Below, piece by piece: positions 23,041 through 58,020 of a DNA stretch of 64,000 nucleotides. The stretch spans positions 50,406,001 to 50,470,000 of the forward strand of contig OX485804.1 in assembly GCA_950295325.1 (NCBI GenBank), in the 5' to 3' direction. The stretch is from Polytrichum commune (lineage: Eukaryota; Streptophyta; Polytrichopsida; Polytrichales; Polytrichaceae). How positions within the stretch are numbered: position 1 is the first letter of the stretch; each line of letters begins with the position of its first letter. The notes under the pieces were generated by a model. The model saw only the letters and a program-made list of their open reading frames with translations. It ran no database searches and was not told where the DNA came from. A program made the translations under genes and the position numbers.

Positions 23041-24308
23041 TGTCACCAAAAAGCCTCCACCCTTCAATTTCGTCCTAGCCCGAATGGAGAAGTTTATAAT
23101 GACATGTAGAGATTTCTCTCTTTGTAACATAATGTATGATTCCAATCTATCGTTGGAATATACGCAACTTAGCCAAGTCTATACTATGTCTTCTTACACT
23201 CCTTAATCTCGAAGTTTGGAAGTTTGGAAGTTTGGATATAGTCTCGGTTTTTTGGCTCTCAAAAATTCACATGAAGTCCAAAAAATGAGTTCTTGGTATC
23301 CATGGATAGGTAATGAAGTCCTCTACATGAATATGCAATAATATTTCTACTGCCACAAAGTATATGGTTGCAATTCTACGCTGTTCCCTTTGAACCTACA
23401 TTTTTTCACTAGTTTTTGGAAGTTTGGATATAGTCTCGGTTTTTTGGCTCTCAAAAATTCATATGAAGTCCAAAAAATGAGTTCTTGGTATCCATGGATA
23501 GGTAATGAAGTCCTCTACATGAATATGCAATAATATTTCTACTGCCACAAAGTATATGGTCACAATTCTACGCTGTTCCCTTTGAACCTACACTTTTTCA
23601 TTAGTTTTTGGAAGTTTGGACATAGTCTCGGTTTTTTGGCTCTCAAAAATTTATATGAAGTCCAAAAAAACTAAATGCTCCAATAAGAGACTTTGTACAT
23701 CCGCATAAGTATAAGGCTAATCAATGTAAATCCAAGTATTCAAACAAAGCCATAAATTGAACTTTAAATCATTCACGCCCAACTATTACTAACAAGAGGT
23801 CAAGCCCTCTTCAAGGCCAACTAGCCTTGGCTCCTAACCTTACATCCATGCACACACACGTGCTCCTATTTTGCTTTCCACGCACCCACACTTATAACAC
23901 GTGGAGTGCCAAGGAGCACGAAGGAAAGAGAGGATGAGTGAGGGAAGAATGAGGGATTATATAGTAAGTTTGAGGGGGTGAGCACCCTCAAGGCTCACGA
24001 TAAGCCCTCGAGATTTCCTCCTACTTTGTAGGCTCTTATCCTATCTCCTAAGCCTTCCTCCCTCAAATGATCAACAAGGATCCTAATTCAAACATTTAAC
24101 TAACCTTGGCTTTCTACCTACCACACTTTACGAAGGTTTGTCCTTCTCCTACTTAAATCCACTCCACAAAAGCCTAATGCTTCAAACTAAGCTTTCTTCA
24201 AGCTTCACTCTTTTTATATTTTTGTGAATAATCATAAATCACCAAAACACCACTTGTATTATTTTACAAGTGTTAACAACCAATGTGGGCATCAATTTTG
24301 GGCTCACA
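23041..24308 (-). repeat. 3' LTR of element A
   Basis: 1268 bp, plus-strand reading TGTCACCAAAAAGCC to TTTTGGGCTCACA. It includes 2.3 copies of a 192-bp tandem repeat (23217-23670; GTCTCGG at 23241, 23433 and 23625). The promoter-side third resembles the LTRs of element B. No clear polypurine tract borders it at 24309; instead the plus strand reads TTATTGGCGACCATC. Confidence 0.92.
23956..23963 (-). promoter_or_regulatory. TATA box of the element A 3' LTR
   Basis: Minus strand TATATAAT, just downstream of the GGGTGCTCACCC-type inverted repeat that precedes the TATA box in L4, L5 and element B. It is absent from the 5' LTR because of a deletion. Confidence 0.65.
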
Positions 24309-24366
24309 TTATTGGCGACCATCTGGGACCGACTCCTAGAATGTCTTGCTTGAAGTCAAGTCGTTT

Positions 24367-27300
24367 TCATGTGTGGAATTGCTTGCACCTATTTCCGGCC
24401 GTTCCCGTCGGGAAGCGTTGTCCGTTGAGTGTCTCCAATTGCACCGAGTTATTAGACCATGTATTCGCCACAATGTAAGGACCTAACCAAACCGCATCAA
24501 ACTTCCCCGGAAAATCCTTTTTCTTCCCGTCTTGGAGCATAACCAACATTCCTCTCTCTAATGCTCTCTTCTTGTGACGCTTGTCAAAAATAACCTTCCT
24601 TCGTCTTTGGATTGCCTCCATGTGTTGAGCGGCCCTCCGCCTCTTCTCATCCAACTCCTCTAGATTTTCTAGCCTATTTCTCAAAGACTCATTGTCGTTG
24701 AGGCGTGTCCCTATTGCAACCCTTAATGACTCTACCTCAAATTCAATAGGAAGTGTAGCCTCAATACCGTACACCAAAGAAAACGGAGTTGCTTGTGTTG
24801 TCACCTTGTAAAGTGTCCGATAAGCCCACAAAGCCGCGTTTAGCTTTACGTCCCAATCTCTCTTTGAGTCGATGACCGTCTTGCGTAAAATGCCGACTAG
24901 AATTCCGTTCACTCGCTCGGTTTGGCCATTAGTTTGAGGGTGATAGGGAGTTGTCTTCCTATGGTCGATTTTAAACCTTTGAGTCATCTCGGACATGAGG
25001 TCATTAAGAAAATGAGTTCCTCTATCACTAACTATAATCTTTGGGACCCCAAACCTAGTAATGATATTTTCGTACATGAATGTAGCGGCATGTGCGGCCG
25101 TGTCGGTTTTGACCGCCCTAGCCTCCGCCCATTTAGTCAAATACTCGGTAGCTACAACAATGTAGGCCATCCCCCTCAAAGAGTGGGGATGGACCTCCCC
25201 TACATAATCTATTCCTCATTTCTCAAAGGGAACTAGTGGTAATGAAATGTGTAATGGCATCTCCATCCTAAGGTCATTTCTAGCGTACCTTTGGCAAGCA
25301 TCACACCTTTTAACATAGTCGTGTGAATCCTAGAATAATGTAGGCCAAAAGTAACCCGCTCTAAGGATTTTCTGGCCGGTAAGTTGGCCAGAAAAATGTC
25401 CTCCACAAGCACTATCATGACATGCCTCTAAAATATCCGGAACCTCTACTTGCGATACACATCTTCTCAAGATGGTATCCGCTCCTCTCCTGAATAATCT
25501 ATTGCCTATCACGGCAAAGTGCCTACTATTGACTCTAACCTTTCTTTTCTCCTCCTTGGTCCATTCGGATGGTAATTGTTGAGTGGTCAGGAATTCTACA
25601 ATTCCGGCATACCAATCCGGTGTGGATGTGACTACAAACAATCTATCATCCATGAGGCTATCGTCTATTGGCGTAGTGCCCATCTCCTCCGACAATCTAG
25701 ACAAGTGGTCGGCTTGTAAATGCATGCGACCCGGTTTATATTCCACCGTGTAATCAAACTCTTCAAGTAACAAAACCCACCTAGCCAACCTTCCACTCAA
25801 CTCCGGCTTGTTGACCAAATACTTAATGGCCATGTGGTCCACAAAAAATACTACCGGATTACAAATAAGATAGTGCCTAAACTTCTTGACCGAAAATACC
25901 ATGGCTAGACACTCTCTCTCCGTAGTGGAGTAATTCCTCTCCGCGGAAATCAATTGCTTACTAGCGTAAGCTACGGGTAGATCCTTCCCCTTCTCTCCCG
26001 TAGATTGACACAAGGCACTACCGACCGCTACATTGCTGGCATCACAATACACATGAAAAGGTTTTTCCCAATCCGGGGGCCTTAAGACGGGATAAGTGCT
26101 CAATTTGGACCTCAACTCAACAAAGGCTTTTTGGCACTCATCCGTCCAAACAAATTTAACATCCTTCTTGAGCAATTGAATGATAGGGACCGTTATCTTT
26201 GCAGAATCCGGAATCAACTCCCTATACCACCCCACATGACCTAACAATTTCGAGATCCCCTCGGCATTTTTCGGAGTTTCTAACCCATCAATGACCGCGA
26301 TCTTGTCGGGATCCGGTTCTCTCCCATTTTCACTCACAACATAACCCAACAAAAATACCCTTTGTACCCCTAGAAATGTCTTGTCCGGGTTTAATGCCAA
26401 CCACATTTGCCTACACCTAATTAAGGCCTCTCTCACACAATGCACATGCTCATTAGTACTAGATTGGGTACTAAAATCATCAATATAAACCGTCATGGAT
26501 TTGAAGAGCAAGTCGCTGAAGATATACATGACTAGTCGTTGGAACGTTGCCGGTGCGTTGCATAAACCAAATGGCATCACCACCCATATGAAAGTCCCCC
26601 AAGGTGTTGTAAATGCCGTCTTGTGCAAATCCGCTAGTGCTATGGCTACTTGGTTGTAGCCGGCGTATCCATCCATGAATGTGTACCTCTCATGACCCCC
26701 TACCTCCTCTAACAACAAGGTAATGAACGGCAAAGGAAAGTGATCATTTTGCGTACAATCATTGAGCTTTCTATAGTCTACACAAACTCTAAGCTTCCCA
26801 TTTTTCTTTTTCACTAACACCATAGGAGAAACCCAATCCGTAATCTCTACCGGCTTTATAAACCCAGCCTCCAACAACCTCTCTAATTCTGCCTTGACCA
26901 ATAATTGCAATCTAGGATTCATCCTTCTCTCTTTTTGTCTCACCGGTTTAGAACCCGGAACTAACGGAATACGATGCTCAACCATCTCTCTAGGAATCCC
27001 CTTGAGCTCATCGTATGACCAAGCAAAGGTATCACTAAACTCATCTATCAAGTCGCTATACTCCTTAATCTCCTTCTTATCGAGTTTAGAGCCCATCTTC
27101 ATTGGTCTAACTTTCCCATCCTTCATTTTGACGTCCACAAACTTCCAATCTTCTTCGACCACTCGTGTTTGCTCCTCGGTATCTCTATACCAATCGTTGG
27201 GTACATTAGGGTAGTCCTTGACATCATGACCTACTATAATGCCCGTAGAAGTAGTTTTAAAATGCAAAGCGGGCTCTAATTTTGAGAGTTCTAACATGGC

Positions 27301-30300
27301 CTCCTCATCTTGAGTCCCATCTACATGTACCAAACTCACATCACCCAACTCAATATCATCTAACCATGGAGTGAGCCCTCCCTTCACCCATTCCTCCTCC
27401 GTGAGAACCTCACACGGCTCTAAGGACAAATAATCTTCTCTAGACACCCTATCTTGGAGGATACAACTATGAGTCATCATCATGACGTCGCTAATGGACT
27501 CCGTGTATTGCCTTGACCAATATATAAAATCCCCACCAACATCTTGATTGTAAAAGTTAGGACCTAAGAACCCGCTAGAGGAATACATTTTAGCCTTCTC
27601 CTTGTCTTGAACAACCCCCACCAATGTATCCTCAAAATCCTCCTTAGTTCCACCATTTTCCTCTTCATCCGACATTGGATCAATCTCCTCCCTAACCCAA
27701 CCACCTAAAGGTGCAATAGAGACCTTGACTCTATTATCTACGGGACCATAGGTGATAGAAGGTTTGTGTCCTCCCCAATCTACTACGGCGTTAGACATCC
27801 TTAACCAAGGTCGCCCTAACAAAATGGGAAATGCATCCTTATTGTCGTGCATCTTAATGACTTGGAAGGTCACAATGTATTCTTCACCTCCCGTGTTAAG
27901 CTGACAATCTTTGATAATTCCCACCGGAACCATTGGACTTTGATTGGCCATATTAATCACAAATGGCAAAGGACCCGTCAAACTTAAGCCCAATTTCCTC
28001 ATAGTGTGCTCCGGTAGAATATTGAGACTACTTCCACCATCCACCAAAACATGAAGAACCACCTTGTCCACTATCGTTACTTCAATCTCCACCGCCTTGA
28101 CTTCCCGAGTTCTTCCTTGCATTTGGATCCTTGCCGACACTCTAGTCTTTGGCCTCTTAGCCCTCCTATTCACGGGCATTCCGTCCTTCAAAGTCTTCCT
28201 AGCTACCGGTGAGATCTCTAATAATTGACCAAAGGTGATATCGGCCTTTAGTGAGCTAAGGTCGGCCCAAAGGTCGTATCCATCTACTCTATCGGCCTTA
28301 GACCTTTTAACACTATCAAACTCTTCTACCAGAATGCCCGGAACTTCTCACTCTCCTACATCACTACCATCTAAATCATGGATGACATTAGACCTTTTCC
28401 TCTCATGGACAATTTCATTTTCTCTCTCTAATGCCTTAGTGGCCTTCCTAGCCTCTCTAGTTGCATTCTCCAACTCCGAAAAATAAGGAATTTCTCCCAA
28501 GGGATTTTCCTCTTCTTCTTCCTCCTCCTCTACTTCTAATGGTGCATTACCTCTTATTGCTCTAGTGGTAACGGCTAATGCCGGAGCCTTATGCACAACT
28601 TCCTCCTTAAGACCCTTTATCTCATATGATATGGAGTTAGAATGTGGAAGACATAGACCCTGACCATTTGTAGACATCTCTAAAGTTACCGGAATGGTGG
28701 AGGAATCCATAAATCGGACATCTTGAGATGTAGACGGTCCCATTTGTTTAGGTGATTGTATAACTTGACCTCCTTGCCCCGGAAGGTTCGTATTCCCATC
28801 ATAGTAGAAGTTGGAAGGTTTAAGTGTATTATTACCTTCATTTTGTAAACCCCTCATAATATTTTGACCTGGTTGTGTCGTGTTGGTTGGAAGGTTCGGT
28901 GCTTCACTTACCTTGTCCGGATAACGACATTGGTTAGACGCATGGGGGCCTCCACAGTTATTACACACTTGACCTTGGTTTTCCGACCAACATTGCCCTA
29001 TGACATGATATCTACCGCAAAGATGGTGAAAATTCTTTTTCTCGGTACTTTGGTTAGTTTGTCCATGTGGCGGAGGGCCCCGATTATTCCCTTGGTTTTG
29101 ATTTTGATTCGGACCCCTTGGGTTTTGTTGAGGACCATTATTGTTCGTTCGTTGATTGCGGTTTGGCCCATTTCTACAAAATTGAAGCGTATGACCGTGT
29201 TGTTGACAATTAGTGCACCAAAATCCCGATGAGTGATTTCCCGACTCTATTTGAGGTGGAAGACCGGGTTGTTGATTTTTTATTAACAATGCCATTTGGT
29301 CCGTTAGATTTTGAAATTGTTTTAACATCGTCTCTTGAAACCCTAGTTGAGTAGCACCTAATCGTTGCTCTATCTCTTCAATTTAAGGGTCCATCCTAGG
29401 GGCCGGCAATGCTAACATGGTTGGGGGGCCCGTCACCGCTAAGGGAATTGAGGCCGCTTCAATGGAGACATATGGAGGGCGATTAAGCGGCCTTATCGGG
29501 TCCATTCCCGTCTTAGGTAGGAGAGGGATGAATTGAGGGATTAACTCATCCTCTTTCCTCCATAGCCGCTCATAATCCCTCTCGATATGTTTCATGTCTC
29601 TAGCGGCTACCTCAGCCTCGGCTAGGGTGCGAGGGTTTCTTTGTAACACACCCCTAATAGTAGTCGCTTTGACAAATCCTCTTATAAAAAATTGCATTAG
29701 AGTGTCATCGTTGAGCAAATCACCTACCCACCTTGCGCATACCCAATCAAATCTCCTAATGTAGGCAGAAATCTCTTCGGCCCTTCCTTGCCTCATAGTC
29801 ATTAAGGCTCTAAAAGCCATACTTTGACCGACTTCGGGTCGAAATTCATTAAAAAACTCCCGTTGTAATTGATCCCAAGTTTGAAAGTGTCCCTCGTCGT
29901 GATCTCTATACCACTCGTAAGCTTCCCCATCTAAGGTCGTAGGAAACCACACTAACCAATATTGTTGGTTGGTAATTAATGAACTAATTATCCTCTCAAT
30001 GAATCTCTCCATATGTCTAGACGGGTCCTCATCTTTAGTCCCGTAGAATTTCGGGAGGTTAGAGGTTATGTCTATTGAAACCAACCCTTGGGGTACGATT
30101 ATTGTAGGCCTCGCGGCCTAACCAATGGATCGATGGGAGGAATTGGTGCTATGGAAGGTGGGACTCCACCTCCCCCTAAAGAATCCATGGTATTTTGTAG
30201 TGCTCCTTCACTAGATTCTCTAGTGCTTACACTACTCTCTTGTCTAGTCCTATTAGGCTCTTCAACTAATTCTTCACTCAATAGGGAAGGAAAATTTCCT

Positions 30301-30479
30301 TCTTCTAATCGAGTAGTTACCGGAGATAATTCTATCAATGGTTCACCCCTAAAGCTACCTTCTACACTAGTACCTACCCCCTCTACTACTTCCTCTATAT
30401 TAGAAGATCTTCGCTTTGTAACATTTTTCTTTAATCCTAATGCTAACTTAGGTTTCTGAGATCTCGTGTTTCCTTGCAT
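24367..30479 (-). pseudogene. Element A gag-pol, five visible lesions
   Basis: Order on the minus strand: Gag from ATG 30479 (MQGNTRSQKPKLALG), capsid region (LPKFYGTKDEDPSRHMERF), CCHC knuckle near 29165-29215, retropepsin DGGSS near 28030-28045, RT with DYRKLND, FMDGYAGYNQ and YIDD (about 26478-26489), RNase H (YCDASN, ERECLAM, FVDHMAIK), zinc-binding integrase N-terminus, and integrase with D(35)E (DRGTHFL to QTERVN). Lesions are a frameshift near 30100, and stops at 29383-29385 (TAA), 28348-28350 (TGA for Trp), 25330-25332 (TAG) and 25216-25218 (TGA for Trp). Gag, protease, RT, RNase H and integrase would form the copying machinery, but this copy cannot make them as one protein. Confidence 0.92.
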
Positions 30480-31288
30480 CCATCATTCATCGATCAACCC
30501 TCACCTTGACCAACCAAATTCTCACAAGTTTCACTTTTTAATATTTCCGCTTAGTTCGTGTGATAAATTGTTTTGGAGGTGAGGAAATAGGGACATACAA
30601 TTTTCAATGAACAATCCCAATAGGGGATGGAAAGCTTGTGTTAGCTTCAAGGTTAGTGCGAGTATCACCTCGTCACACCCCTTTTACGCTCAACACTTGC
30701 AACAAGACTCTTCGTGAGGGGCTGACCATTCTTGGGTACCATGCTTGGAATCGAGGTTCACCCTTCGATTCCTTACATTATACTTCCAAGTTTGGAATTA
30801 CCCTCTCCGTTCGTTATGACAAAGACAATTATAAAAATCATTTTTTAATTTAATGTTTTTTTCAATTGGAAGAAATTTTGCTTACCTCAAGTAATTTGCT
30901 TCCTCCTGCTTTATTAGTCTCTCCCCTTGATCGAATTGCTAAACACTTCAATAATTGCAATTGAAAAACACTAAAACCCTCTAGTTTAAAAACTTTAAAC
31001 TCTCACCACCGAGTGAGTGTTTGAAGTTTGAAATCCTAATTCTTTAATTATCCATCTACCTCTTAGTTTTCTAGTGCGGATCCTATTAACGTGATCTTCG
31101 TTTATGCCATCCCAAGAAGGTTTAGTAGTCGCACCTTTGCCGTGCTCCTTCCTCAATTGAAATTGCATAAAATAAATACTAAATGCAAAACATACCTCTC
31201 ACGAGCGCTCCGTCCTTTAATCGCTCTTCACGCTTCGCTTCTCCTACCGCCTTCCAAGACTTCCGTCGCCCACTCTCCAAGCTCCAAG

Positions 31289-31306
31289 CTCCCGGCGGAC
31301 GCACCA
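31289..31306 (-). promoter_or_regulatory. Primer-binding site of element A
   Basis: Minus strand TGGTGCGTCCGCCGGGAG, four bases from the 5' LTR and identical to the site in element B. The predicted tRNA would end CTCCCGGCGGACGCACCA. It is not the initiator Met type; a glycine tRNA is my best guess from the acceptor stem, at low certainty. Confidence 0.75.
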
Positions 31307-31310
31307 TATA

Positions 31311-32151
31311 TGTCACCAAAAAGCCTCCACCCTTCAATTTCGTCCTAGCCCGAATGGAGAAGTTTATAATGACATGTAGAGATTTCTCTCTTTGTAACAT
31401 AATGTATGATTCCAATCTATCGTTGGAATATACGCAACTTAGCCAAGTCTATACTATGTCTTCTTACACTCTTTAATCTCGAAGTTTGGAAGTTTGAAAG
31501 TTTGGATATAGTCTCGGTTTTTTGGCTCTCAAAAATTCATATGAAGTCCAAAAAATGAGTTCTTGGTATCCATGGATAGATAATGAAGTCCTCTACATAA
31601 ATATGCAATAATATTCTTACTGCCACAAAGTATATGGTCGCAATTCTACGCTGTTCCCTTTAAACCTACATTTTTTCACTAGTTTTTGGAAGTTTGGATA
31701 TAGTCTCGGTTTTTTGGCTCTCAAAAATTCATATGAAGTCCAAAAAATGAGTTCTTGGTATCCATGGATAGGTAATGAAGTCCTCTACATGAATATGCAA
31801 TAATACGTGAGTTTGAGGGGGTGAGCACCCTCAAGGCTCACGATAAGTCCTCGAGATTTCCTCCTACTTTGTAGGCTCTTATCCTATCTCCTAAGCCTTC
31901 CTCCTTCAAATGATCAACAAGGATCCTAATTCAAACATTTAACTAACCTTGGCTTTCTACCTACTACACTTTACGAAGGTTTGTCCTTCTCCTACTTAAA
32001 TCCACTCCACAAAAGCCTAATGCTTCAAACTAAGCTTTCTTCAAGCTTCACTCTTTTTATATTTTTGTGAATAATCATAAATCACCAAAACACCACTTGT
32101 AATATTTTACAAGTGTTAACAACCAATGTGGGCATCAATTTTGGGCTCACA
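31311..32151 (-). repeat. 5' LTR of element A, promoter deleted
   Basis: 841 bp against 1268 bp for the 3' LTR. Bases 31311-31805 match the left LTR up to about 23536, then the sequence jumps to the equivalent of 23964. The missing ~427 bp contain part of the 192-bp repeats and exactly the TATA box. In this orientation this is the LTR that should drive transcription. Confidence 0.9.
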
Positions 32152-42540: not shown

Positions 42541-42546
42541 AACAAT

Positions 42547-43184: not shown

Positions 43185-43186
43185 CG

Positions 43187-45091: not shown

Positions 45092-45093
45092 TT

Positions 45094-45105
45094 TGGTATC
45101 AGAGC
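45094..45105 (+). promoter_or_regulatory. Primer-binding site of G4
   Basis: TGGTATCAGAGC two bases after the LTR; initiator Met-tRNA type. Confidence 0.9.
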
Positions 45106-45118
45106 AGGGTTCCAAGTT

Positions 45119-45745: not shown

Positions 45746-45915
45746 ATACCAAGGCAAATCATGCTAGCTCGTGCCGTGGACGAAATGTGAGAAGGTGGTT
45801 GGTGGTACCAAGCTAGATCATATTTGTGCCACGGACGGAGTGTTAAAAGTTGGCCTTGCGGACCAAGCCAAACTCATGGTGTTGCCGACGACCAAATGTT
45901 AGACGATGGCTTTGT
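45746..45915 (+). repeat. ~58-bp minisatellite (G4), three units
   Basis: Three units with GCCGTGGACGAAATGT, GCCACGGACGGAGTGT and GCCGACGACCAAATGT. The array is shorter than in G1 or G3. Confidence 0.75.
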
Positions 45916-45959
45916 GGCCAAGGCTAGTAGCCTTAAGCCAAGGCCAACTATTTTATATC

Positions 45960-46442
45960 TTGAGGCTCAAATGAATGGGACAAACGTCTAATGGGTTGAC
46001 AAAGAGGCAAGCCATGCCTTCTTGAGCCCAAAACTCATAAGGGAGTTGGGGCTTGCCGATTGATAGAGCGGGCAAGCCCACCAAGGTGCGGTTTGGAAAG
46101 GGCAAACCGCATGAGACAAAGGAGGCCGCGATGCATGTAACCTTTCAATGTGGGACATTGGATTTTTGTCAAAATTTCACACCAAGTGAAATAGATGAAA
46201 TGCATGTCATTGTGAAGGCCGCCTACTTTGAAACTCAGATGATAGATGTGAGGTGCAAGCCGGTGAGCTTGCGGTGCATTATGATGTGTCATAATGGCAA
46301 AGAATTGAAGTTCAAATTGACAAGGACTCCTATGGTAGGAGGACCCAAGTTGAATTTGGTCTTAATGGACCAAATGAAAAATAGAAAACATAATGGTCGT
46401 GGTTCAATTGGAGCAACTCCAAGGAATGTATGGGGAGGCTAG
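45960..46442 (+). pseudogene. G4 retropepsin remnant
   Basis: VDKEASHAFLSPKLIRELG at about 45995-46050, with D at 45998-46000 and a TAA just upstream, followed by a 129-codon open stretch (46053-46442) with FGKGKPHETKEAAMHVTFQC and the MIDVRCKPVSLR block. The active-site triplet is DKE. Confidence 0.75.
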
Positions 46443-46784
46443 GAAAGATGGGCCTCCTCCAAACCACATTGGTGGGATGTTGGTGAGATACAAGAATGTA
46501 TTCACAAATGTGTTGCCCAAAAAGTTACCGCCAAGAAGTGAAAAATAACTTTGCTCAACGAGAGATTGAGTTCTTGAGGTATGTGGTGACAAAGGAAGTT
46601 CGTGGATGAACATGAAGAATGTCAAGGCAATCCAAGAAGAGAATTGGCCCTTGATTCAAGAAAAGGGCTTAGGTCATTTGTTGGCCTAGACAACTACTAC
46701 CACCACTTCATTCATGGTTTTTCTAAGGTTGCTAGAACCTTAGTCAACATGTTGGAAAAAATGGCTATCCCAAAAGTGGGATGA
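46443..46784 (+). pseudogene. G4 RT remnant lacking the catalytic core
   Basis: MLVRYKNVFTNVLPKKLPPR passes at 46538-46548 to NNFAQREIEFLRYVVTKE, and then to the connection segment GLRSFVGLDNYYHHFIHGF (46602-46784). It has the same junction as G1, G3 and G5 and no palm motif. Confidence 0.85.
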
Positions 46785-46993
46785 GCCTTGCCACCAAGCC
46801 TTTGGGGAGCTCAAGAGTAAGTTCTCTTCACAACATGTGGTTAAGTTTCCGGGTTTTCATGAGCATGTTGAGGTGCACATGAAGGCGAAGGATTTTACCA
46901 TTGGCGGATGTTGATCCAAGATGGATGACCATTGCTTATAGGAGCATTAAGCTCCATGGTTGTAGAAGCTTGTCCAACTTGTGCAAGAGATGG
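46785..46993 (+). repeat. G4 RNase H module, left of element B
   Basis: First unit of the tandem RNase H block (HQAFGELKSKF, then VHMKAKDFTIGGC). Element B entered the next unit at GCAAGA|GATGG. Confidence 0.8.
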
Positions 46994-48383
46994 TGTGAGG
47001 CCAAACCCCCCACCCTTAAGCGTCCGTAGTCCGAGTAGTGGGTTTGGGCTCACATTCCTCCGCGGTATTGGATTTGGACTTGGATGAGTCCATAGTGCAA
47101 GGTTCACCCTTCAAGTGGTCTTGGATTTAACTAGCTCCTTCATAAACCCAGCTCCTTCATGAACCCACAACTTTGTAGTTGTAATCCCCAACTACCTCAC
47201 TAATTATTCAAGCCCTTAACTAATCTTCCTACCTAATTTCCCTAATTCTACTAACAACCCCTTTCTAATCACACAATTCTTCTCTAATCCTAAAATCCTA
47301 AAATCCTAGAGAGGAGAGGGGGAGAGAGAATTTCCTAACTTCACTAAGACTAACTAATCCACACAAGTATATTTTTGCACTCATCACAACATCAAGTGCT
47401 CAACTCTTAAACATGGAACTTGCAACCACGTGTATTCAAAACATGAACTTTAAGTACCACAAATTGGAATCATGAATTAACTTTAAAATCCTTCACGTCA
47501 ACACTAATTCTACCAAGAGGTCAAGCCCTCTTCAAGGCTAACAAGCCTTGGCTCTCAAACTAAAAACTAAGCACACACATGTGCTCCAATATGGCTTCCC
47601 ACACCCACACTTAGAACTCGTGGGGTGCCTTGGAGCACAAAGGAAAGAGAGGATGAGTGAGGGAAGAATGAGGGATTATATAGTAAGCTTGAGGGGGTGA
47701 GCACCCTCAAGGCTCACGATAAGCCCTTGAGATTTCCTCCTACTTAGTAGGCGCCAATCCTATCTTCTAAGTCTTCCTCCCTCAAATGATCAACAAGGAT
47801 CCTAATTCGAACATTTAACTAGCCTTGGCTTTCTACCTACCACACTTTACCAAACTTGGGATGCTTCAACCCAAACTTAGCCTCCTTCGCTTTCCGCCGC
47901 CATAACTTTCTCCCCTTACTTTCCCAAATCGTCGCTCACCACTTAATTCAAACCACGATGCTTAACTCGTGATTTGATTGGTGCTTTGAGAATTTGCTTA
48001 TCCTCCACCTTGCATTCTTCCTTGGGCCTTCCCCATTAAGTGGCCATGATGAGGTGGTCCACTTGTGCGCTCCATGTGATCCTCCATTCATCCCAATTCG
48101 AATGCACTTGCCTCTTGAGTCACTTTGGTTGTCTCCATCCATTTGTACTAGCCTACTCACTAACTACTCAATCCAAGTTCTCCTTACCTATCCTCATTCA
48201 CTCAAATCCTTCCGAAGGTAAAAACACAATAACAACTCACATCCTAGCCTCTTACAACATGGTACTTCTAAGACTAACATTTCACTCTTTTTATATTTTT
48301 GTGAAGTAACATGCTACTTCAAAGTGCATCAACTAACGTTTCAAGGGTCTAAGACTAAATGTGGGCACCCTTTTGGGCTCACA
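46994..48383 (-). repeat. 3' LTR of element B
   Basis: Plus reading TGTGAGGCCAAACC to TTTTGGGCTCACA, 1390 bp. TATATAAT on the minus strand at 47675-47682. The only difference seen from the other LTR is in CACTTAGAACTC (here G; T at the other LTR). 48384-48444 lies between the LTR and the stop codon; it has no purine tract and reads TAATTGGCGACCATCGGG on the plus strand. Confidence 0.95.
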
Positions 48384-48444
48384 TAATTGGCGACCATCGG
48401 GGGATGAATCCAAACATCTCTTGCTCCAAGGGTAAGTTGCCTAG

Positions 48445-51400
48445 TCAAGCTCGGTACTCCTTACATCTACTTCCCGATGTACGGGTAGGAAAGAGCTCAC
48501 CATTCAACGTTTCCAATTGAATTGAATTATTAGGAAAGACCTTATAGACAAGGTAAGGTCCTAACCATACCGCATTGAATTTCGCCGGAAATTCAAGCTT
48601 TCGTGCGTCTTGAATCATGACCATCATTCCCGGTGTTAGGGCCCTTCTCTTATGTCGTTTGTCGAAAGTAATTTTTCTCCTTCTTTGGATTGCCTCAATA
48701 TGTTGAGCCGCCATGCTCCTCCCTTCGTCAAGTGCTTCCAAATCGGTTAGTCGATTTCGTAAGGATTGACTTTCGGTAAGTCTCGTACTCACGGCCACCC
48801 TAAGTGACTCGACTTCATATTCGATTGGTAGTGTCGCTTCAAGACCATAGACTAAGGAAAATGGTGTAGCACGCGTAGTTACCTTATAGGTTGTACGGTA
48901 TGCCCAAAGTGCCGCCGTTAGTTTCGTATCCCAATCCCGCTTCGAGTCTATAACCGTCTTGCGTAGTATACTCACCAAAATTCCGTTAACCCTTTCCGTT
49001 TGTCCATTGGTTTGTGGGTGGTAGGGAGTAGTCTTCCGGTGATCAATTTTAAATTTCTCTGTCATCTCTCGAATCAAGTAATTCAAAAAGTGAGTACCCC
49101 TATCGCTTACTAGGATCTTCGGCACCCCGAACCGCGAAATTATGTTTTCGTACATAAATGTTGCCGCGTGTTCCGCCGTGTCGGTCTTCACCGCTTTGGC
49201 TTCCGCCCACTTGGTGAGGTACTCGGTTGCCACCACAATATATTTCATTCCTTTTGAAGATTGGGGATGGACCTCACCCACATAGTCGATGCCCCATTTT
49301 TCGAAAGGAATTAAGGGTAATGATACATGTAAAGGCATCTCCATTCTAAGGTCGTCTCGGGCATACCGTTGGCAAGCGTCGCATTTCCTTACATAGTCAT
49401 GGGCGTCCTTAAATAGTGTAGGCCAAAAGTAGCCCGCTCTAAGTATTTTTTGCCCGGTGAGTTGACCCGAGAAGTGACCGCCGCAAGCGCTATCGTGGCA
49501 AGCGATTAAAATCGCTTCAACCTCCGTTTTTGACACGCATCGTCGTAAAATACCATCGGACCCCCTTCTAAACAACCTATGGCCCACTACAACAAATTGC
49601 CTACTATTTACCCTCACCTTCCTTCTCTCTTCTTTTGTCCACTCTTTGGGCAACTTGTGGGTTGTTAGAAATTCCACTATGCCCGCATACCACTCCGGTG
49701 TAGAAGTGACCACAAAGAGGCTATCATCTACTAACATATCATTTACCGGATTTTTTCCTATCTCCTCCGACAACCTAGACAAGTGGTCCGCTTGTAAATG
49801 CATCCTCCTCTCCTTTTGTCTAATTGGCCTCGCCCCCGGAATTAAAGGAATCCGGTGCTCTACCATTTCCCTAGGAATTCCCTTAAGCTCATCGTAGGAC
49901 CATGCAAAAGTATCACTAAACTCATCCACCAAATTGCTATACTCCCTAACCTCTTTCTCCCCCAATTTGGAGCCCATCTTCATTTGTCGGGTTTTTCCAT
50001 TCTTTAATTTCACATCCACGTACCGCCAATCCGCTTCCGACACATGTGCTTGTTCCTCTTTGTTCCGATACCAATCGGAAGGCACATTGGGGTAATCTTT
50101 CACATCTTGACCTACAACTATCCCCGTAGACGTGGTCTTGAAATGTAAAGGCTCCTCCAATTTCGATGACTCAATAATCACATCCTCCTCTTGAGTCCCA
50201 TCTACATGAATTAAACTAACCTCACCCTCTTCCACGTCATCTACCCAAGGTGTTAACCCACCGCTAACCCACTCTTCCTCGGTGAGCACCTCACATGGCT
50301 CCAACAATGAGCCCTCTCCTAAACTAACACTAGGAAATTCACTCCCTAAGCCTACTTGGTGAAATGTAACCATTACATCAACCTCGGACTCGGGGTACTC
50401 CCTTAGCCATTGGGCATAATCCCCATTATCCCCATAATTGTAAAAATTAGGACCTAGACTTCCCGAGCCCGAATCTATAACAACCCTTTGACCTTCGGGA
50501 TGGACGACTCCCACCAATGCCTTGCCAATCTCATTCTCGTTTAAGTCATCAATTTCCTTCTCCAATGGCAAATACATCTCCTTCTTCATCCATCCTTCTA
50601 ATGAACCAATGGACACTATGACCCTATTACCCTCCGGACCATAAGTGATGGATGGTTTAGGTCCACCCCAATTGACCATAGCATTCGCCATCCGCAACCA
50701 AGGCCTACCTAGCAAAATGGGGAAGGTGTCCTTGTTGGAGTGCATTTTAATGACATGGAAGGTGACCAAGTACTCCTCACCTCCCGTAGTCATTCTACAA
50801 TCCTTGATCATCCCCAAAGGCGTAGTCGAACTTTGATTTGCCATATTTATGACCAAAGGTGAAGGCCCCGTGAGTCCAAGTCCCAATTTTTTCATAGTAT
50901 CCTCCGGTAGTATATTTAGACTACTCCCTCCGTCGACTAGCACATTAGGAACCACCTTATCTACTATAACAACTTCTATTTCTATAGCTTTCACGTCTCT
51001 TCCACCTTGTGATTGGATCCTAGCGGCTATTTTAGCTTTCACCTTCCTCATCCTCTTGTGTACCGGCATTCCCTCCTTTAATGTTTTCCTTGCCGTGGGT
51101 GAAATTTCCAATAGTTGGCCGAAAGTAATATCCGCCTTGAGTGTACTAAGGTCCGCCCACAAGTCGTACCCGGTAGATCTTTCCACCTTAGAATTACCCA
51201 CTACGTCGAATTCGTCTACGGGAACCCCCGGTCCTTCCCATTCACCCACATCGCTATTATCCAAGTCATGTACCGCATTAGTCCTCTCCCTATCTTGTAA
51301 AATTATATTTTCCCTCTCCACATCCTTAGTAGCTCTTCTAGCTACCCTATCCAACTCGGAGAGATTAATCTCTTCATCCGAAGAGTAATTTCCTTGCTCT

Positions 51401-53487
51401 CCTATTCCTACCTCCAACGGGGCATCCCCTCTCCTAGCCCTAGTAGTTACCGCTAGTGCAGGTGCTTCTTCAACCACACCCTTACCCTTCACTAACTCAT
51501 ATGTAATAGCATTGGTGTGAGGAGGCCATTGACTTTGCTCCTCTCCAATTCTCGTTGGGAGAGGAAGCATGTCATCACATGTGGCCTCCAACACTCCATC
51601 CATGAACCTAACATCTTGGGAGTTAGATGGTCCCGGATCCGTTGGAGGCGCTTGTCTCCCGTTACTACCATTAGGTGGAACTCCTTGTCTATTTTGTATT
51701 GGAATGTAACCGGTTGTAGTTTGCAAGCCCGCCGGTGGATGAAAAGTTTGCCTAGCATTACTATGGTCATAGTATAAGTTAGGTGGCCTAAGTTCATTGG
51801 CCGGTACTCCTTGTGGCCTAGCGCCTCGCATATTATCCCTTGCTTGTTGTTGTGGATTAGCCACCGGGTAAGGGACATTAATTATTTTGTCCGGTTGGCG
51901 ACACGTATCCGAGGGATGACTTCCTCCACAATTGCTACAATTAAACTCTTGACCTTCGGACCAACATTGTCCTTGAGCGTGCCACCTTCCACAAAAGGGA
52001 TGAAATTCCTTCTTCTCTAAATTTTGGCCACCTTGCCCTCTAGGTTGTGGTCCTCTATTGCTTCCATTTCCATAGTGAGGTGGCGCTTGACCTCGTTGAT
52101 TTTGTTGAGGTGGGTTACCGTTTCCTCTTTGGTCACGGTTTTGTCCACTTCTACAAAATTGACGCGTGTGGCCCGGTTGGCCACATTGGACACACCATAA
52201 TCCGGAAGAATGCCTACCCGACTCAACCGGGGGTGGAGGCCCCGGTTGTTGACTCCGGATCATTAATGACATTTGATCCGTGAGGCTTTGCATTTGTTTT
52301 ATCATAGCCTCTTGGAATCCTAGTTGGCTAGCACCTAGTCTTCTCTCAACCTCCTCCAAGTGTGGATCCGTTCTAGGGGCCGGTAGTGCCAAAAGAGGTG
52401 CCGGTTCCCTAACCGCTAAAGGTCGGGGACCGGTGTCCACAATGGCATATGGAATTTGGTTCTCATACTTAGCGGGTTCTACCGCTACCACCCTAGGGCG
52501 TATGGGGATGAATTGTGGGATCAATTCATCCTCCCTTCTCCATAGCCTTTCGTGATCTTTATCCAAGTTTTCAATATCTCTAGCCGCACGCTTGGCATCC
52601 GCCAAGGTCAAGGGATTCCTTTCTAGAACACCCCTAATAGTTCCGGACTTAAAAAACCCTTGAATGAAAAATTGCTTTAGCGTGTCGTCGTTGAGCATGG
52701 TACCCACAAATCTAGTGCACACTAAATCAAACCTCCTAATGTAAGCCGAAATTTCTTCCTCCCTTCCTTGCTTCAATGACGACAATGCCCTTAATGCGGT
52801 ACTTTGACCCACTTCCGGCCTAAATTCGTTAAGAAACTCCCTTTGTAATTGTTCCCATCCCCTAAAATGTCCCTCGGCATGATCCCGATACCATTCATAG
52901 GCTTCCCCCTCTAGAGTGGTAGGAAACCACACTAACCAATAACCCGGGTCGGTTATGAGGAAGCTAGCCAACCGTTCGATATACCGTTCCATGTGCCGAG
53001 AGGGGTCCTCATCCTTGGTCCCATAAAATTTAGGGAGATGAGATGGCATATCCATCGCCGCTAAATTTTGTGGAACCACAATTGGTAGGCCTCTTGGCCT
53101 AACCAATGGGTCTATTGGAGGTATAGGAGGTATGGGCGGAATTGGGGGTATGGGTGGTGGATCCATCCCCGGTTCCTCGGCCATGGTGACCGGTGAACTA
53201 TTCAACAATCCCCTATCAACTTCTACCGGGAATTCTTCTCTAAGTGTGTAATTTTCCGAAGAAGTTTCACCACTCAATTTGGAGGGAGTGATCTCCTCTT
53301 CAAGTTGAGCTCCAAGTTCTAAGGTGTCTAGAATTGACCTAGTCCTAGGTTCGACGTTCAAACAACTCTCTATTCTAACATTATCTTGTTCTAATCTATC
53401 ACTGATTTTAGAGGACCGCCTCTTTCGAGTAGATTTCTCTAGTCCTACTATCAAACTTGGTTTTTGTGAGCGAGTCCTACCTTGCAT
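48445..53487 (-). CDS. Element B polyprotein: Gag-PR-IN fused across a RT/RNase H deletion
   Basis: 1680 codons, ATG at 53487, TGA at 48445-48447. Order: proline-rich linker (PPIPPIPPI), capsid-type Gag (LPKFYGTKDEDPSRHMERY to about 52500), CCHC knuckle CVQCGQPGHTRQFC (52152-52193) and a second CX2CX3HX4C (CSNCGGSHPSDTC), retropepsin LVDGGSSLNILP (near 50925-50945), then QKERRM joined to HLQADHLSRLSEE at 49801-49803, the zinc-binding integrase N-terminus (HDSACGGHFSGQ to CDACQ), integrase core with WGIDYVGE (about 49285), SDRGTHF (about 49100) and QTERVN (about 48990), exactly D(35)E, and a GPYLV segment near the C-terminus. Element A has 399 further codons at the joint, namely all of RT and RNase H. 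The product could package, process and integrate but not copy. Confidence 0.96.
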   Translation of the reverse strand: MQGRTRSQKPSLIVGLEKSTRKRRSSKISDRLEQDNVRIESCLNVEPRTRSILDTLELGAQLEEEITPSKLSGETSSENYTLREEFPVEVDRGLLNSSPVTMAEEPGMDPPPIPPIPPIPPIPPIDPLVRPRGLPIVVPQNLAAMDMPSHLPKFYGTKDEDPSRHMERYIERLASFLITDPGYWLVWFPTTLEGEAYEWYRDHAEGHFRGWEQLQREFLNEFRPEVGQSTALRALSSLKQGREEEISAYIRRFDLVCTRFVGTMLNDDTLKQFFIQGFFKSGTIRGVLERNPLTLADAKRAARDIENLDKDHERLWRREDELIPQFIPIRPRVVAVEPAKYENQIPYAIVDTGPRPLAVREPAPLLALPAPRTDPHLEEVERRLGASQLGFQEAMIKQMQSLTDQMSLMIRSQQPGPPPPVESGRHSSGLWCVQCGQPGHTRQFCRSGQNRDQRGNGNPPQQNQRGQAPPHYGNGSNRGPQPRGQGGQNLEKKEFHPFCGRWHAQGQCWSEGQEFNCSNCGGSHPSDTCRQPDKIINVPYPVANPQQQARDNMRGARPQGVPANELRPPNLYYDHSNARQTFHPPAGLQTTTGYIPIQNRQGVPPNGSNGRQAPPTDPGPSNSQDVRFMDGVLEATCDDMLPLPTRIGEEQSQWPPHTNAITYELVKGKGVVEEAPALAVTTRARRGDAPLEVGIGEQGNYSSDEEINLSELDRVARRATKDVERENIILQDRERTNAVHDLDNSDVGEWEGPGVPVDEFDVVGNSKVERSTGYDLWADLSTLKADITFGQLLEISPTARKTLKEGMPVHKRMRKVKAKIAARIQSQGGRDVKAIEIEVVIVDKVVPNVLVDGGSSLNILPEDTMKKLGLGLTGPSPLVINMANQSSTTPLGMIKDCRMTTGGEEYLVTFHVIKMHSNKDTFPILLGRPWLRMANAMVNWGGPKPSITYGPEGNRVIVSIGSLEGWMKKEMYLPLEKEIDDLNENEIGKALVGVVHPEGQRVVIDSGSGSLGPNFYNYGDNGDYAQWLREYPESEVDVMVTFHQVGLGSEFPSVSLGEGSLLEPCEVLTEEEWVSGGLTPWVDDVEEGEVSLIHVDGTQEEDVIIESSKLEEPLHFKTTSTGIVVGQDVKDYPNVPSDWYRNKEEQAHVSEADWRYVDVKLKNGKTRQMKMGSKLGEKEVREYSNLVDEFSDTFAWSYDELKGIPREMVEHRIPLIPGARPIRQKERRMHLQADHLSRLSEEIGKNPVNDMLVDDSLFVVTSTPEWYAGIVEFLTTHKLPKEWTKEERRKVRVNSRQFVVVGHRLFRRGSDGILRRCVSKTEVEAILIACHDSACGGHFSGQLTGQKILRAGYFWPTLFKDAHDYVRKCDACQRYARDDLRMEMPLHVSLPLIPFEKWGIDYVGEVHPQSSKGMKYIVVATEYLTKWAEAKAVKTDTAEHAATFMYENIISRFGVPKILVSDRGTHFLNYLIREMTEKFKIDHRKTTPYHPQTNGQTERVNGILVSILRKTVIDSKRDWDTKLTAALWAYRTTYKVTTRATPFSLVYGLEATLPIEYEVESLRVAVSTRLTESQSLRNRLTDLEALDEGRSMAAQHIEAIQRRRKITFDKRHKRRALTPGMMVMIQDARKLEFPAKFNAVWLGPYLVYKVFPNNSIQLETLNGELFPTRTSGSRCKEYRA

Positions 53488-54374
53488 TCCATAAGAATCG
53501 ATCGACCCTCACTTGACCACACATAATCCTAGCAATTCCCCTCTTAATATTTTCACTTGTCTTGGTGTGGTTATAATTTTTTTAGGAGGTGAGGAAAAGA
53601 ACCTGCAAGCCCACTTAGGTGAAAGAATCCCAATAGGGGATAGGCATGTTCATGTTAATTTTTTGGTTAAGTCGGAGCATCACCTCCGCACCTTCCCGCA
53701 AATTAACACTCACCACAATACCGATTGTGAGGGGGTGACCTTCCGAGTAGATTATGTTAAAAGTCGAGGCTTCACCCTTCAACTTCTCACACCATCCACA
53801 ATTCGGGAATTACCCTCTACAACGGATAACAACAATCACGAGTACAAAAGGCATTCCTTAATTAGTTAATGAGTTCACTTTGAAGAAATAAACATACCTT
53901 GAGCAATCGCATCCCCCTGTGAGTTAGCACTCCCCTCAATCGTGACTCAATGTAACAACACCATAAACTTTGTGAAATATTAATTTAATCTAGAGCATGA
54001 AATGACAACTCCCAAAACTTTGAGACTCACCCCGAGGTGAGTGTCAAAGTTCAATGTCCTAAGGTGAATTTACCCTCTAATGTTTTAATGAGCTACTCGG
54101 TTATAGGTTCCTTTTAAGTTCTTAGCAAATCCCCAAAAAGGTTGAGGACGCACCTTCGCCGCGCTCCTTCCTCAAAAATGAATTTGCGTAATTGACAATG
54201 CAATTCATTCCAAGGAATAGTTGAAATACAATGAATTCAAATGTAACCCAAAGAGAGAATACTTACCGAGTTTCGGGTGCTCCTTCCCTTCTCTCAAGTT
54301 TGTGTCTCCAATTTTTCCTAGTTGCCTCCAAGTCTCCTAGTCGCCTCCAAGTCTTGTAACTACCTTCCGCTTCG
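53488..54374 (-). other. Element B leader between primer site and Gag
   Basis: Untranslated leader of about 0.9 kb, the place for packaging and dimerisation signals. I see no ORF on the element strand and no distinct repeat. Element A has a comparable leader (30480-31288). Confidence 0.6.
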
Positions 54375-54392
54375 CTCCCGGCGGACGCACCA
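54375..54392 (-). promoter_or_regulatory. Primer-binding site of element B
   Basis: Minus strand TGGTGCGTCCGCCGGGAG, four bases inside the 5' LTR, identical to element A. Confidence 0.78.
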
Positions 54393-54396
54393 ATTA

Positions 54397-55786
54397 TGTG
54401 AGGCCAAACCCCCCACCCTTAAGCGTCCGTAGTCCGAGTAGTGGGTTTGGGCTCACATTCCTCCGCGGTATTGGATTTGGACTTGGATGAGTCCATAGTG
54501 CAAGGTTCACCCTTCAAGTGGTCTTGGATTTAACTAGCTCCTTCATAAACCCAGCTCCTTCATGAACCCACAACTTTGTAGTTGTAATCCCCAACTACCT
54601 CACTAATTATTCAAGCCCTTAACTAATCTTCCTACCTAATTTCCCTAATTCTACTAACAACCCCTTTCTAATCACACAATTCTTCTCTAATCCTAAAATC
54701 CTAAAATCCTAGAGAGGAGAGGGGGAGAGAGAATTTCCTAACTTCACTAAGACTAACTAATCCACACAAGTATATTTTTGCACTCATCACAACATCAAGT
54801 GCTCAACTCTTAAACATGGAACTTGCAACCACGTGTATTCAAAACATGAACTTTAAGTACCACAAATTGGAATCATGAATTAACTTTAAAATCCTTCACG
54901 TCAACACTAATTCTACCAAGAGGTCAAGCCCTCTTCAAGGCTAACAAGCCTTGGCTCTCAAACTAAAAACTAAGCACACACATGTGCTCCAATATGGCTT
55001 CCCACACCCACACTTATAACTCGTGGGGTGCCTTGGAGCACAAAGGAAAGAGAGGATGAGTGAGGGAAGAATGAGGGATTATATAGTAAGCTTGAGGGGG
55101 TGAGCACCCTCAAGGCTCACGATAAGCCCTTGAGATTTCCTCCTACTTAGTAGGCGCCAATCCTATCTTCTAAGTCTTCCTCCCTCAAATGATCAACAAG
55201 GATCCTAATTCGAACATTTAACTAGCCTTGGCTTTCTACCTACCACACTTTACCAAACTTGGGATGCTTCAACCCAAACTTAGCCTCCTTCGCTTTCCGC
55301 CGCCATAACTTTCTCCCCTTACTTTCCCAAATCGTCGCTCACCACTTAATTCAAACCACGATGCTTAACTCGTGATTTGATTGGTGCTTTGAGAATTTGC
55401 TTATCCTCCACCTTGCATTCTTCCTTGGGCCTTCCCCATTAAGTGGCCATGATGAGGTGGTCCACTTGTGCGCTCCATGTGATCCTCCATTCATCCCAAT
55501 TCGAATGCACTTGCCTCTTGAGTCACTTTGGTTGTCTCCATCCATTTGTACTAGCCTACTCACTAACTACTCAATCCAAGTTCTCCTTACCTATCCTCAT
55601 TCACTCAAATCCTTCCGAAGGTAAAAACACAATAACAACTCACATCCTAGCCTCTTACAACATGGTACTTCTAAGACTAACATTTCACTCTTTTTATATT
55701 TTTGTGAAGTAACATGCTACTTCAAAGTGCATCAACTAACGTTTCAAGGGTCTAAGACTAAATGTGGGCACCCTTTTGGGCTCACA
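54397..55786 (-). repeat. 5' LTR of element B
   Basis: 1390 bp. TATATAAT at 55078-55085 (minus strand), preceded in element order by a GGGTGCTCACCC inverted repeat, is the likely promoter. GATGG follows at 55787-55791. Confidence 0.95.
55078..55085 (-). promoter_or_regulatory. TATA box of the element B 5' LTR
   Basis: Minus strand TATATAAT, at the same place as in L4, L5 and the 3' LTR of A. Confidence 0.65.
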
Positions 55787-56200
55787 GATGGCTATCCCAA
55801 GAGTGGGATGAGCCTTGCCACCAAGTCTTTGAGGGGCTTAAGACCAAGTTCCTCTTTACCACCCGTGTTCAAGTTCGCGGAGCTTGAAAAACCTTTTGAG
55901 GTGCATACGGGGGGCGAGTGACTTTACCATTGGCGGATGTTGATGCAAGATGGATGGCCATCGCATATGAGAGCATGAAGCTCGATGGTTCGACTTGTGG
56001 AAGAAATGGCTATCCCAAGAGTGGGATGATGTTTGTCACGAGTCTTTGGGGAGCTTAAGACCAAGTTCTCTTCGCCGCCCGTGCTCAAATTCGCGGAGCT
56101 TGACAAACCTTTTGAGGTGCATACGGGGGTGAGTGACTTTGCCAATGGTGGATTATGTGTAAGATGGATGGCCATTGCATATGCGAGCATAAAGCTCGAT
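55787..56200 (+). repeat. G4 RNase H modules, right of element B
   Basis: Continuation of the tandem RNase H block after element B: two units with CTATCCCAAGAGTGGGATGA and KPFEVHTG (near 55900 and 56110). The last has HTGVSDFANGG and continues into the rest of RNase H (56200-56340, AVVHCLKMWRHY in a broken frame). Confidence 0.82.
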
Positions 56201-56340
56201 GGTTGTCAAAGAAGACAACCAACTCCTGACAAAGAATTTCTTTGCGGTAGTGCATTGCTTGAAGATGTGGCGACACTAGTTGGGGTCGCACAAAGTAAAG
56301 GTCTACAAGGACAATGTGTCCTAAAAGTATTTTGACAGAC

Positions 56341-58020
56341 AAGCGCAAGTGAGCGCCAAGTCATTGCGTTGGCATGATAGCTTGGCGCTTATGAAGGTGG
56401 ATTTAATCCACAAACCGGACCGTGGAAATGTGGTGCCGGATGCGCTAAGTAGACGGGAAGAGTTCCAAGCAATGAGAACCATCCAAACCTTGTGGCTAAT
56501 GTGTGCCGGCGAAGGAAACTTGTGATGCAAGATACGGGAGGGGTAAATTAACTACCCCAAAGCACAAATGCTTTTAGGTGAGCTTCGCAAGAGCAAGGTG
56601 CTCAAAGAGGTTAAGTTGGTGGACGGATTGTTCAAGTGTAAACAAAGTCGGGTGTATGTGCCACAAGGCAAGTTGAGGCTATCGGTTTTGAAGGATGAAT
56701 GTGATAGTCCTATTGCCGGCCATAGAGGAGAAAGAAAAAGCCGCCATAGAATGGTGTCATGGGGGTACCATTGGCGGTGCATAAAGAAGGATATAGCCCA
56801 CTTTGTGAAGGCTTGGATGAAGTGCCAAGTGAACCGAGCCTCTTACCAAAAGTAAGGCGGCTTCTTCCAACCGTTGCCTATCCCGTCGGGGCCATGGCAT
56901 AGTATGTGCATGGACTTGATCACAAGTTTGCCGGAGTCACATGGGTATGATGTCATCTTGTTGATGGTAGAGCGGTTTGCCAAGTTGGCACACATGGTGC
57001 CGATTGTGGGAACCGCCACCGCGTTGGAGACCGCATAGCCTTTTCTCAAAGGATGGTTGAGGCACCACGGGTTGCCAAGAGTGATTGTGTGGGATCAAGA
57101 TCCAAAGTTCACAAGTGCATTTTCAATGCATTTCTCTAAGGAGGTCGGAATGAAACTAAGGTTTAGCACGGCCTTGCATTCCCAAATGAATGGGAAAGCG
57201 GAGCATGTGAATGTAGTCTTGAAGCAATACTTGAGGAACTTGGTGGGGGCGGACCAAGGAGATTGGGCGGTCTATGTGGGTCGAGCGAAGTGTAATTGCA
57301 ATGTAGCCACGCACTTGGCTACCAAGGGGTGGTCTTTGGTGGTGGCTTATGGAGTGGATGCGCTCCAACCTATTAACCTAGCTCTCGAGGGGGCACATTC
57401 AACACTAGAGTTCAACCAAGATGGTGAGGACTTGGCCAAGGATGGTAAACAAGTCTTGGAGATGACCAAGTTGTTGGTGGAGAAAGCCTGAAGGTGCTAC
57501 GGAGTGCAAATCAATGCCGGGAGACGCGAAGTGGAGTATGAGGTGGGCCAATAAGGTGTTGTTGAATGTGGACAACTTCACCTTGCCCAAAGGCCTTACT
57601 CCAAAAGTTCATGTCCAAAATTGGAGCTTCGTTTTCCATTGTGGAACAAGTGTTCAAGGACATGTATAAGTTGGAATTACCGCCGGAGATCAAAGTGCAT
57701 CCGACATTTCATGTCTCATTACGAAAGTCATTTTAGGACGACACCTTGTGGCCCGAACACAAGCAAGTGGTTAGGCCACGTCCCGACCTTGTGGAGGGCA
57801 TTTGGAACATGAGGTAAGAGGGCATCCTCAAGTGTAGGAAGCCCAAGTGAAAATGAAAGAAAAAGTACAAAGGAATACTTGGTGAAATGGTGAGGATACC
57901 ATAAGAAAGAAGCCGTTTGGGTAGCGGCAAGAGACATGATGAACGCCAAGGAATTGGTAAAGCACTTTGAAGAAACTAAGGCTACACATTCCAATAAAAT
58001 GAAGCGTAGGCATTGATGAG
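56341..58020 (+). pseudogene. G4 integrase and chromodomain remnant
   Basis: Zinc-binding region 56568-56855 (DSPIAGHRGER, KEDIAHFVK-like, WMKCQVNRASYQK), the first Asp near 56915, then a 144-codon open stretch (57057-57491) with WDQDPKFTS and MNGKAEHVN, D and E 35 residues apart. The chromodomain (KEYLVKW-stop-GYH to NAKELVKHFEET) lies at 57870-57985. Family stops: 57036-57038 (TAG), 57734-57736 (TAG), 57891-57893 (TGA). The remnant is followed by 58020-58298 of 3' noncoding DNA. Confidence 0.87.

Follow-up and report, generated by a model that had tools for sequence, protein, structure and literature searches.

The window analysed here is a stretch of 64,000 nucleotides from Polytrichum commune (assembly GCA_950295325.1, contig OX485804.1, positions 50,406,001 to 50,470,000 of the forward strand). 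It contains a long terminal repeat (LTR) retrotransposon, element B, whose single open reading frame (ORF) encodes Gag, protease and integrase and lacks reverse transcriptase (RT) and ribonuclease H (RNase H). Very probably, element B is a member of a young subfamily without RT, within a recently active family of Ty3/gypsy elements; this subfamily would have lost RT-RNase H in one deletion and reached 22 copies by means of a borrowed RT. The RT-less copies are numerous and encode no RT; where their ends can be read, they carry the marks of retrotransposition. This is the pattern of a trans-mobilised subfamily: one coding defect is found at 22 places, and the copies in which both ends can be read (8/8) have different target duplications.

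The overall structure of element B is as originally predicted, with a perfect GATGG duplication, two LTRs of 1390 bp and an ORF of 1680 codons. The sole LTR-LTR mismatch opposes a G at 47614 to a T at 55017. The features used below are the following; they include element A, a second element of the window.

46994-55786, minus strand: element B, LTR retrotransposon
46989..46993, no strand: target-site duplication GATGG, left copy, perfect match to the right copy
55787..55791, no strand: target-site duplication GATGG, right copy
46994..48383, minus strand: 3' LTR of element B, 1390 bp, one mismatch to the 5' LTR
54397..55786, minus strand: 5' LTR of element B, 1390 bp
54375..54392, minus strand: primer-binding site, 18 nt identical in elements A and B
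48445..53487, minus strand: single Gag-protease-integrase ORF without RT-RNase H, 1680 codons
51082..53487, minus strand: Gag, with capsid domain and a CCHC knuckle at residues 432-445 (boundary approximate)
49804..51081, minus strand: protease and linker, followed by the beginning of the RT domain as far as QKERR (approximate limit towards Gag)
49801..49803, minus strand: deletion joint, an ATG common to the two limits of the absent 399-codon block
48448..49800, minus strand: remnant of the RNase H end (HLQADHLSR) and integrase (zinc-binding and core domains)
48384..48398, minus strand: inner 3' junction, expected position of the polypurine tract, with a 13-bp core identical in element A
23041..32151, minus strand: element A, RT-encoding, related but distant and decayed, used for comparison only

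The ORF of element B matches the Pfam domains Retrotrans_gag, Asp_protease_2, Integrase_H2C2 and rve, and neither RVT_1 nor RNase H was found in it (Pfam, E 0.001). The Asp_protease_2 match is borderline (24.2 bits for a cut-off of 24.3); the protease-bearing stretch is 63% identical to that of element A over 452 columns. The integrase can be aligned with the solved integrases of foamy virus and Ty3, and the chromodomain by which the chromovirus clade is recognised was not found after the integrase in P0001 (Pfam, E 0.001). With an ORF of 1680 codons, element B does not belong with TRIM or LARD elements, which have no coding capacity. LTR ends of the TG..CA type, a 5-bp duplication and a tRNA-type primer site are all present in the family of element B. 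When the flanks of element B are joined, the resulting empty site matches a related repeat unit at 41226-41026, ungapped and at 97% over 201 bp. Element B is located in a 229-bp tandem repeat (46757-46994, 55787-56120 and 63157-63998), which overlaps an RNase H coding segment of a different retroelement.

The missing block can be delineated by comparison with element A. In agreement with the original prediction, RT and RNase H are absent at 49801-49803, and the corresponding ends in element A, Met424 and Met823 of P0002, are exactly 399 codons apart, with an ATG as their only overlap. RVT_1 and RT_RNaseH are located between these two methionines (Pfam), the YIDD motif (residue 569) falls in the block absent from element B, and the limits of the block lie close to the start of the RT domain and to the end of RNase H, respectively. 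The best solved relative of element A is the Ty3 Gag-Pol protein (E 1.1e-67). Residues 403-832 of element A align with residues 50-475 of the Ty3 RT-RNase H (4ol8); thus, nearly all of RT and RNase H is gone in element B. Element A is not the parent of element B, since their proteins are 54-82% identical depending on the segment and synonymous sites are near or at saturation. From the protease to the joint, the ratio of nonsynonymous to synonymous rates (dN/dS, or omega) between A and B is 0.10, with the same saturation of synonymous sites; this value mirrors old selection on RT-encoding ancestors and is uninformative on the RT-less history. The excision is precise and in frame, as would also be the case if a cryptic intron had been removed from the RNA before reverse transcription. 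However, no placement of the joint yields GT...AG ends with the letters of the siblings (read by eye), and such an intron is scarcely credible.

The same joint is found elsewhere in the genome. A 120-bp query across this feature, for which 40 of 675 candidates were scored, matched full-length at 22 places distributed over contigs C1 to C7 (17 identical, 5 at 99%). In the 408-Mb genome, a 31-base joint pattern, with at most 3 mismatches allowed, retrieved the same 22 places, 21 of them exactly and one with a single mismatch, and the reversed control gave 0. With 22 places against 0, the joint is neither unique to the window copy nor due to chance; that one assembly error should recur 22 times is unlikely. 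The case envisaged at the outset, in which the joint would occur in this copy only, is thereby excluded. It might be argued that the deletion affects only the insertion in the window and occurred at its last reverse transcription or later. Youth alone predicts an open frame, as an unselected frame of the age of element B would stay open with a probability of about 0.7 (0.15-0.99), assuming indels 15% as frequent as substitutions. A one-off template-switch copy is, nevertheless, refuted by the presence of the joint at 22 places with different target duplications, and the likelihood of such an event is practically nil.

The comparisons that follow concern 21 copies, namely the window copy and 20 of the 21 others (L022 was excluded). 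Both LTR ends are in view in 8/21 copies, all of which have perfect and mutually different 5-bp duplications. A flank is in view in 14/21 copies and no two flanks are alike, so that the original expectation of one joint with different flanks holds for all copies in view. These results bear on the possibility that one locus was duplicated as DNA instead of being retrotransposed. Such a duplication would be in keeping with the proximity of the window copy and L045, which are 95 kb apart and show 1 difference in 6013 internal positions, with the heavily duplicated array around them, and with the 7/21 copies that have no flank in view. It is very improbable in view of the eight different duplications, the 14 unlike flanks and the about 770 bp that the LTR of L045 has in excess of that of the window copy. 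Among the near-identical copies L031-L050, LTR length ranges between 1390 and 1566 bp in copies with both ends located and is longer in others; this variation arises through repeat-rich sequence within the LTR.

The LTRs of the RT-less copies are young. Eighteen usable LTR pairs, some of them partial and 3 with an internal gap, contain 9 mismatches in 25,910 bp, and 11/18 are mismatch-free. L037 and L038, where an LTR minisatellite broke the alignment (3 and 11 raw mismatches), and L039, which has no usable pair, were dropped; with L037 and L038 retained, the figure becomes 23 mismatches in 28,635 bp. At an alternative substitution rate of 2.2e-9 per site and year, the 18 pairs correspond to an age of 79,000 years. 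The age is about 13,000 years at 1.3e-8 per site and year, the rate quoted in the available text of PMC9744471, and LTR-to-LTR conversion would give falsely young ages.

RT-encoding siblings of the RT-less copies are present in the same genome. Two patterns, one per end of the RT block, occur at 279 and 313 places, and a pattern for the primer-site-to-LTR junction at 438 places, with reversed controls at 0; for repeats, such counts may be lower bounds. RT-less copies represent about 7% of all copies having either the RT-less joint or the RT block. Roughly 100-140 of the 438 junctions are unexplained by RT-block ends and the 22 joints, and may reflect divergence, truncation or further deletion classes. 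Of the seven siblings first compared, five are open through RT-RNase H, and in these the same two ATGs are likewise separated by exactly 399 codons, the ATG being again the only overlap of the block ends; the other two are shifted. An eighth RT-encoding copy, L023, is broken on both sides of the block (270 and 105 codons open) and was left out of the 7-copy integrase comparison, of the junction comparison (its junction is not in view) and of the 12-copy selection comparison. Within the partial stretches read, RT-RNase H and integrase are open in 8/13 siblings (12 copies and L023). In the RT-encoding siblings, integrase comes after RT-RNase H, as in Ty3/gypsy elements (Metaviridae), an order that element B, being devoid of RT, cannot itself display. 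Putative counterparts of the full-length partner anticipated by the original prediction were found among the siblings looked at, each read in part only, in that their LTR ends and primer site agree with those of element B. The primer site is identical to that of element B in 2/3 copies checked, with one mismatch in the third, and the inner 3' junction is identical in the 7/7 copies where it is in view. L054 and L057, two RT-encoding copies, have the same 302 codons open and one RT-RNase H stop in common; they may represent a second RT-dead sub-line beside the deletion.

RT-less and RT-encoding copies are closely related. In the integrase (1359 bp), for which all 22 RT-less copies, L022 included, were compared with 7 RT-encoding copies, there is no fixed difference between the two sets, and the mean number of differences is similar within the RT-less copies (6.5) and within the RT-encoding copies (7.4), and amounts to 7.8 between them. 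Some alleles are found only in RT-less copies, at 48715 (13/22) and 49080 (7/22), each being 0/7 in the RT-encoding copies. Moreover, 9 variants are common to L031 and L046 alone, two RT-less copies with unlike flanks. These shared variants of their own argue for an RT-less RNA as the template for further RT-less insertions, probably during more than one cycle. Alternatively, variants may have been transferred from unsampled siblings by recombination. The four-gamete test is failed by 103/528 pairs of shared sites, as would be expected if different RNAs of the family recombine in one particle; some of these failures will be due to recurrent mutation, chiefly from C to T.

Whether the shortened frame is used was addressed through its variants. 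The 1680-codon frame is kept in 15/21 copies and lost in 6 (judged by length). Private ORF variants of the 21 copies comprise 55 nonsynonymous changes, 29 synonymous changes and 4 stops, each stop being private to one copy (omega 0.86, p=0.30); under neutrality, a nonsynonymous fraction of about 0.69 would be expected. Shared variants comprise 14 nonsynonymous and 11 synonymous changes and no stop; their omega of 0.58 (interval 0.24-1.41, p=0.12) comes from a weak test, with few shared variants. The dN/dS below 1 anticipated within the RT-less set was thus not established. Each copy has about 6 private changes, versus about 1 expected after insertion from the LTRs. Most private changes are therefore probably older than the insertion; they would have arisen during copying or in unsampled ancestors, and they are still neutral-looking. 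In a small control with 12 RT-encoding copies, RT-RNase H has 15 nonsynonymous and 8 synonymous private changes, and 0 and 3 shared ones (p=0.03), a hint of constraint on RT in the RT-encoding lineage. The integrase of these copies has 17 and 11 private changes and one stop, and 2 and 1 shared changes. One shared stop lies in their RT-RNase H, which indicates that broken RT templates can spread.

These data allow a selected semi-autonomous lineage to be weighed, in which the Gag-protease-integrase protein acts on its own RNA or adds to the supply of particles, only RT being borrowed. The frame open in 15/21 copies, the confinement of all 4 stops to single copies, the position of the deletion, in frame and near domain edges, and the omega of shared variants would agree with it, and the cis-working fusion protein of the mouse IAP type 1Delta1 provides a precedent (available text of PMC6466679). 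It is nonetheless unlikely, given the wide interval of the shared omega, the private omega close to neutrality even for variants most of which probably predate insertion, the chance of 1 in 3 that a deletion is in frame, and the RT-RNase H stop common to more than one sibling. That the frame of element B is open does not prove that it is used: youth combined with copying in trans is a sufficient explanation, and the young age of the lineage is the main reason for the open frame. Of the original proposal that the shortened ORF is under selection or very recent, the LTRs uphold the second term, and the neutral-looking private variants lend no support to the first. A multicopy lineage that borrows RT is borne out by the 22 copies, their duplications, the variants shared among them and their siblings; the supply of Gag, protease and integrase by the RT-less frame is not, open frames being expected of young copies anyway. 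A lineage that outsources only reverse transcription, with its own Gag, protease and integrase working perhaps preferentially on its own RNA and with RT-RNase H obtained from siblings in mixed particles, is conceivable but rather doubtful.

The history of the young, RT-borrowing subfamily can be proposed as follows. RT and RNase H would have been lost in a single deletion reaching from one ATG codon to another, 399 codons further on. The 3-bp overlap suggests that this event was most likely a template switch made while an RT-encoding RNA was being reverse-transcribed. The shortened RNA would have retained the LTRs, the leader, the primer site, the inner 3' junction and one Gag-protease-integrase frame. 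Logic requires that this RNA was copied by a foreign RT-RNase H, the most likely source of which would be RT-encoding siblings of the same family, through shared particles. The 22 copies would then result from independent insertions, as seen wherever ends or flanks are readable, probably over more than one cycle and with recombination among RNAs of the family. According to the available text of the corresponding studies, template switching and movement of a vector on GAG and POL provided in trans were demonstrated for tobacco Tnt1 (PMC2923131), and 30-40% of new copies were estimated to be dead on arrival in two wheat families (PMC9744471).

It should, however, be noted that several points weigh against this reconstruction. 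The RT-less lineage is known here from genome sequence alone, the genome search covered the ATG joint as the only deletion class, and 7/21 copies have no LTR end in the sequence stretch examined. The alleles found only in RT-less copies were compared with 7 of about 300 siblings. A single origin of the deletion is suggested by one feature, the identical joint, and variants 48673 and 49356 segregate in RT-less and RT-encoding copies alike. The latter would be consistent with several origins of the same ATG-ATG deletion in different RT-encoding templates. A 3-bp overlap does not, however, make a strong hot spot (in element A, at least 3 bp are shared by about 6% of point pairs drawn at random), and recombination between siblings or recurrent mutation accounts for the shared variants; several origins are thus improbable. 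Finally, the expected polypurine tract is absent, which leaves second-strand priming unexplained. No purine run adjoins the 3' LTR in A or B, and none was found in about 22 inner bases of 7 RT-encoding copies, in departure from what is characteristic of Ty3/gypsy elements. At 48384-48420 (B), at 24309-24345 (A) and in the 7 RT-encoding copies, a conserved GATGGTCGCCAAT stands in place of the tract. The antisense of this sequence presumably resembles a second tRNA-complementary primer site. No description of missing polypurine tracts was found among the literature search listings.

Other repeats occupy much of the window. Solo LTRs of related families are located at 14414-16657 (with a perfect GTTGG duplication), 20913-22508 (GAAGG/GAACG duplication, inside a 127-bp tandem array) and 17951-19280. 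Large direct and inverted duplications, about 81-100% identical, cover 1-5325, 32152-46993 and 55788-64000; in particular, 37058-37992 and 43186-44120 show no difference in 935 bp (100% identity). An RVT_1 fragment at 13833-14435 has no significant similarity to the RT of element A and, by eye, is of the non-LTR type. Searches of viral contigs with P0001 or P0002 and of prokaryote genomes with P0002, made to find relatives, were fruitless, and neither Rfam matches at gathering scores nor a tRNA scan of the window yielded anything useful.

The mode of element B is known, that of a non-autonomous LTR element carried by relatives; the loss of RT-RNase H alone, in frame, differs. In the available parts of the papers cited below, the losses reported for non-autonomous LTR elements concern Gag, part of gag and pol, or RT and integrase, and several of these elements have far diverged from their helpers. 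No described family with Gag, protease and integrase but without RT was found in the literature searched, most subscription journals being outside its coverage. A clean loss of RT-RNase H, near-identical siblings in the same genome and countable daughters constitute a natural experiment on the cis or trans action of retrotransposon proteins and on the pace at which defective templates gain ground within an active family.

Within the same limits, the mouse IAP type 1Delta1 is comparable: it has an internal deletion with a joined ORF, is non-autonomous, receives proteins in trans from full-length siblings and is the source of many insertions (PMC6466679). Unlike element B, which is without RT-RNase H alone, this animal retrovirus-like element has a 1.9-kb loss that affects parts of gag and pol. 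Its fusion protein reportedly assists in cis, a role that is only conceivable for the protein of element B. Barley BARE2 and rice Tos17 are non-autonomous plant LTR elements that lack one protein and are still mobile (PMC3735527, PMC3977881), but they are Copia elements and their defect is in Gag. RT-less populations, some with a potentially intact gag, are described for wheat RLG_Sabrina and RLG_WHAM and barley RLC_Giselle (PMC9744471, PMC5738225); in these, integrase is absent as well as RT. The Retand PRAREs are young plant gypsy copies without some coding domains (PMC11963269) and, in contrast to element B, have a long pol-to-3'LTR region; that study was blind to RT-less copies, because it selected elements on a complete RT domain. 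Lastly, wheat RLG_Quinta and RLG_Cereba form an autonomous and non-autonomous pair with common LTR ends and primer site, of which the non-autonomous partner can supply Gag (PMC11302176). Element B differs from this pair in still encoding protease and integrase and in its near-identity to the RT-encoding siblings.

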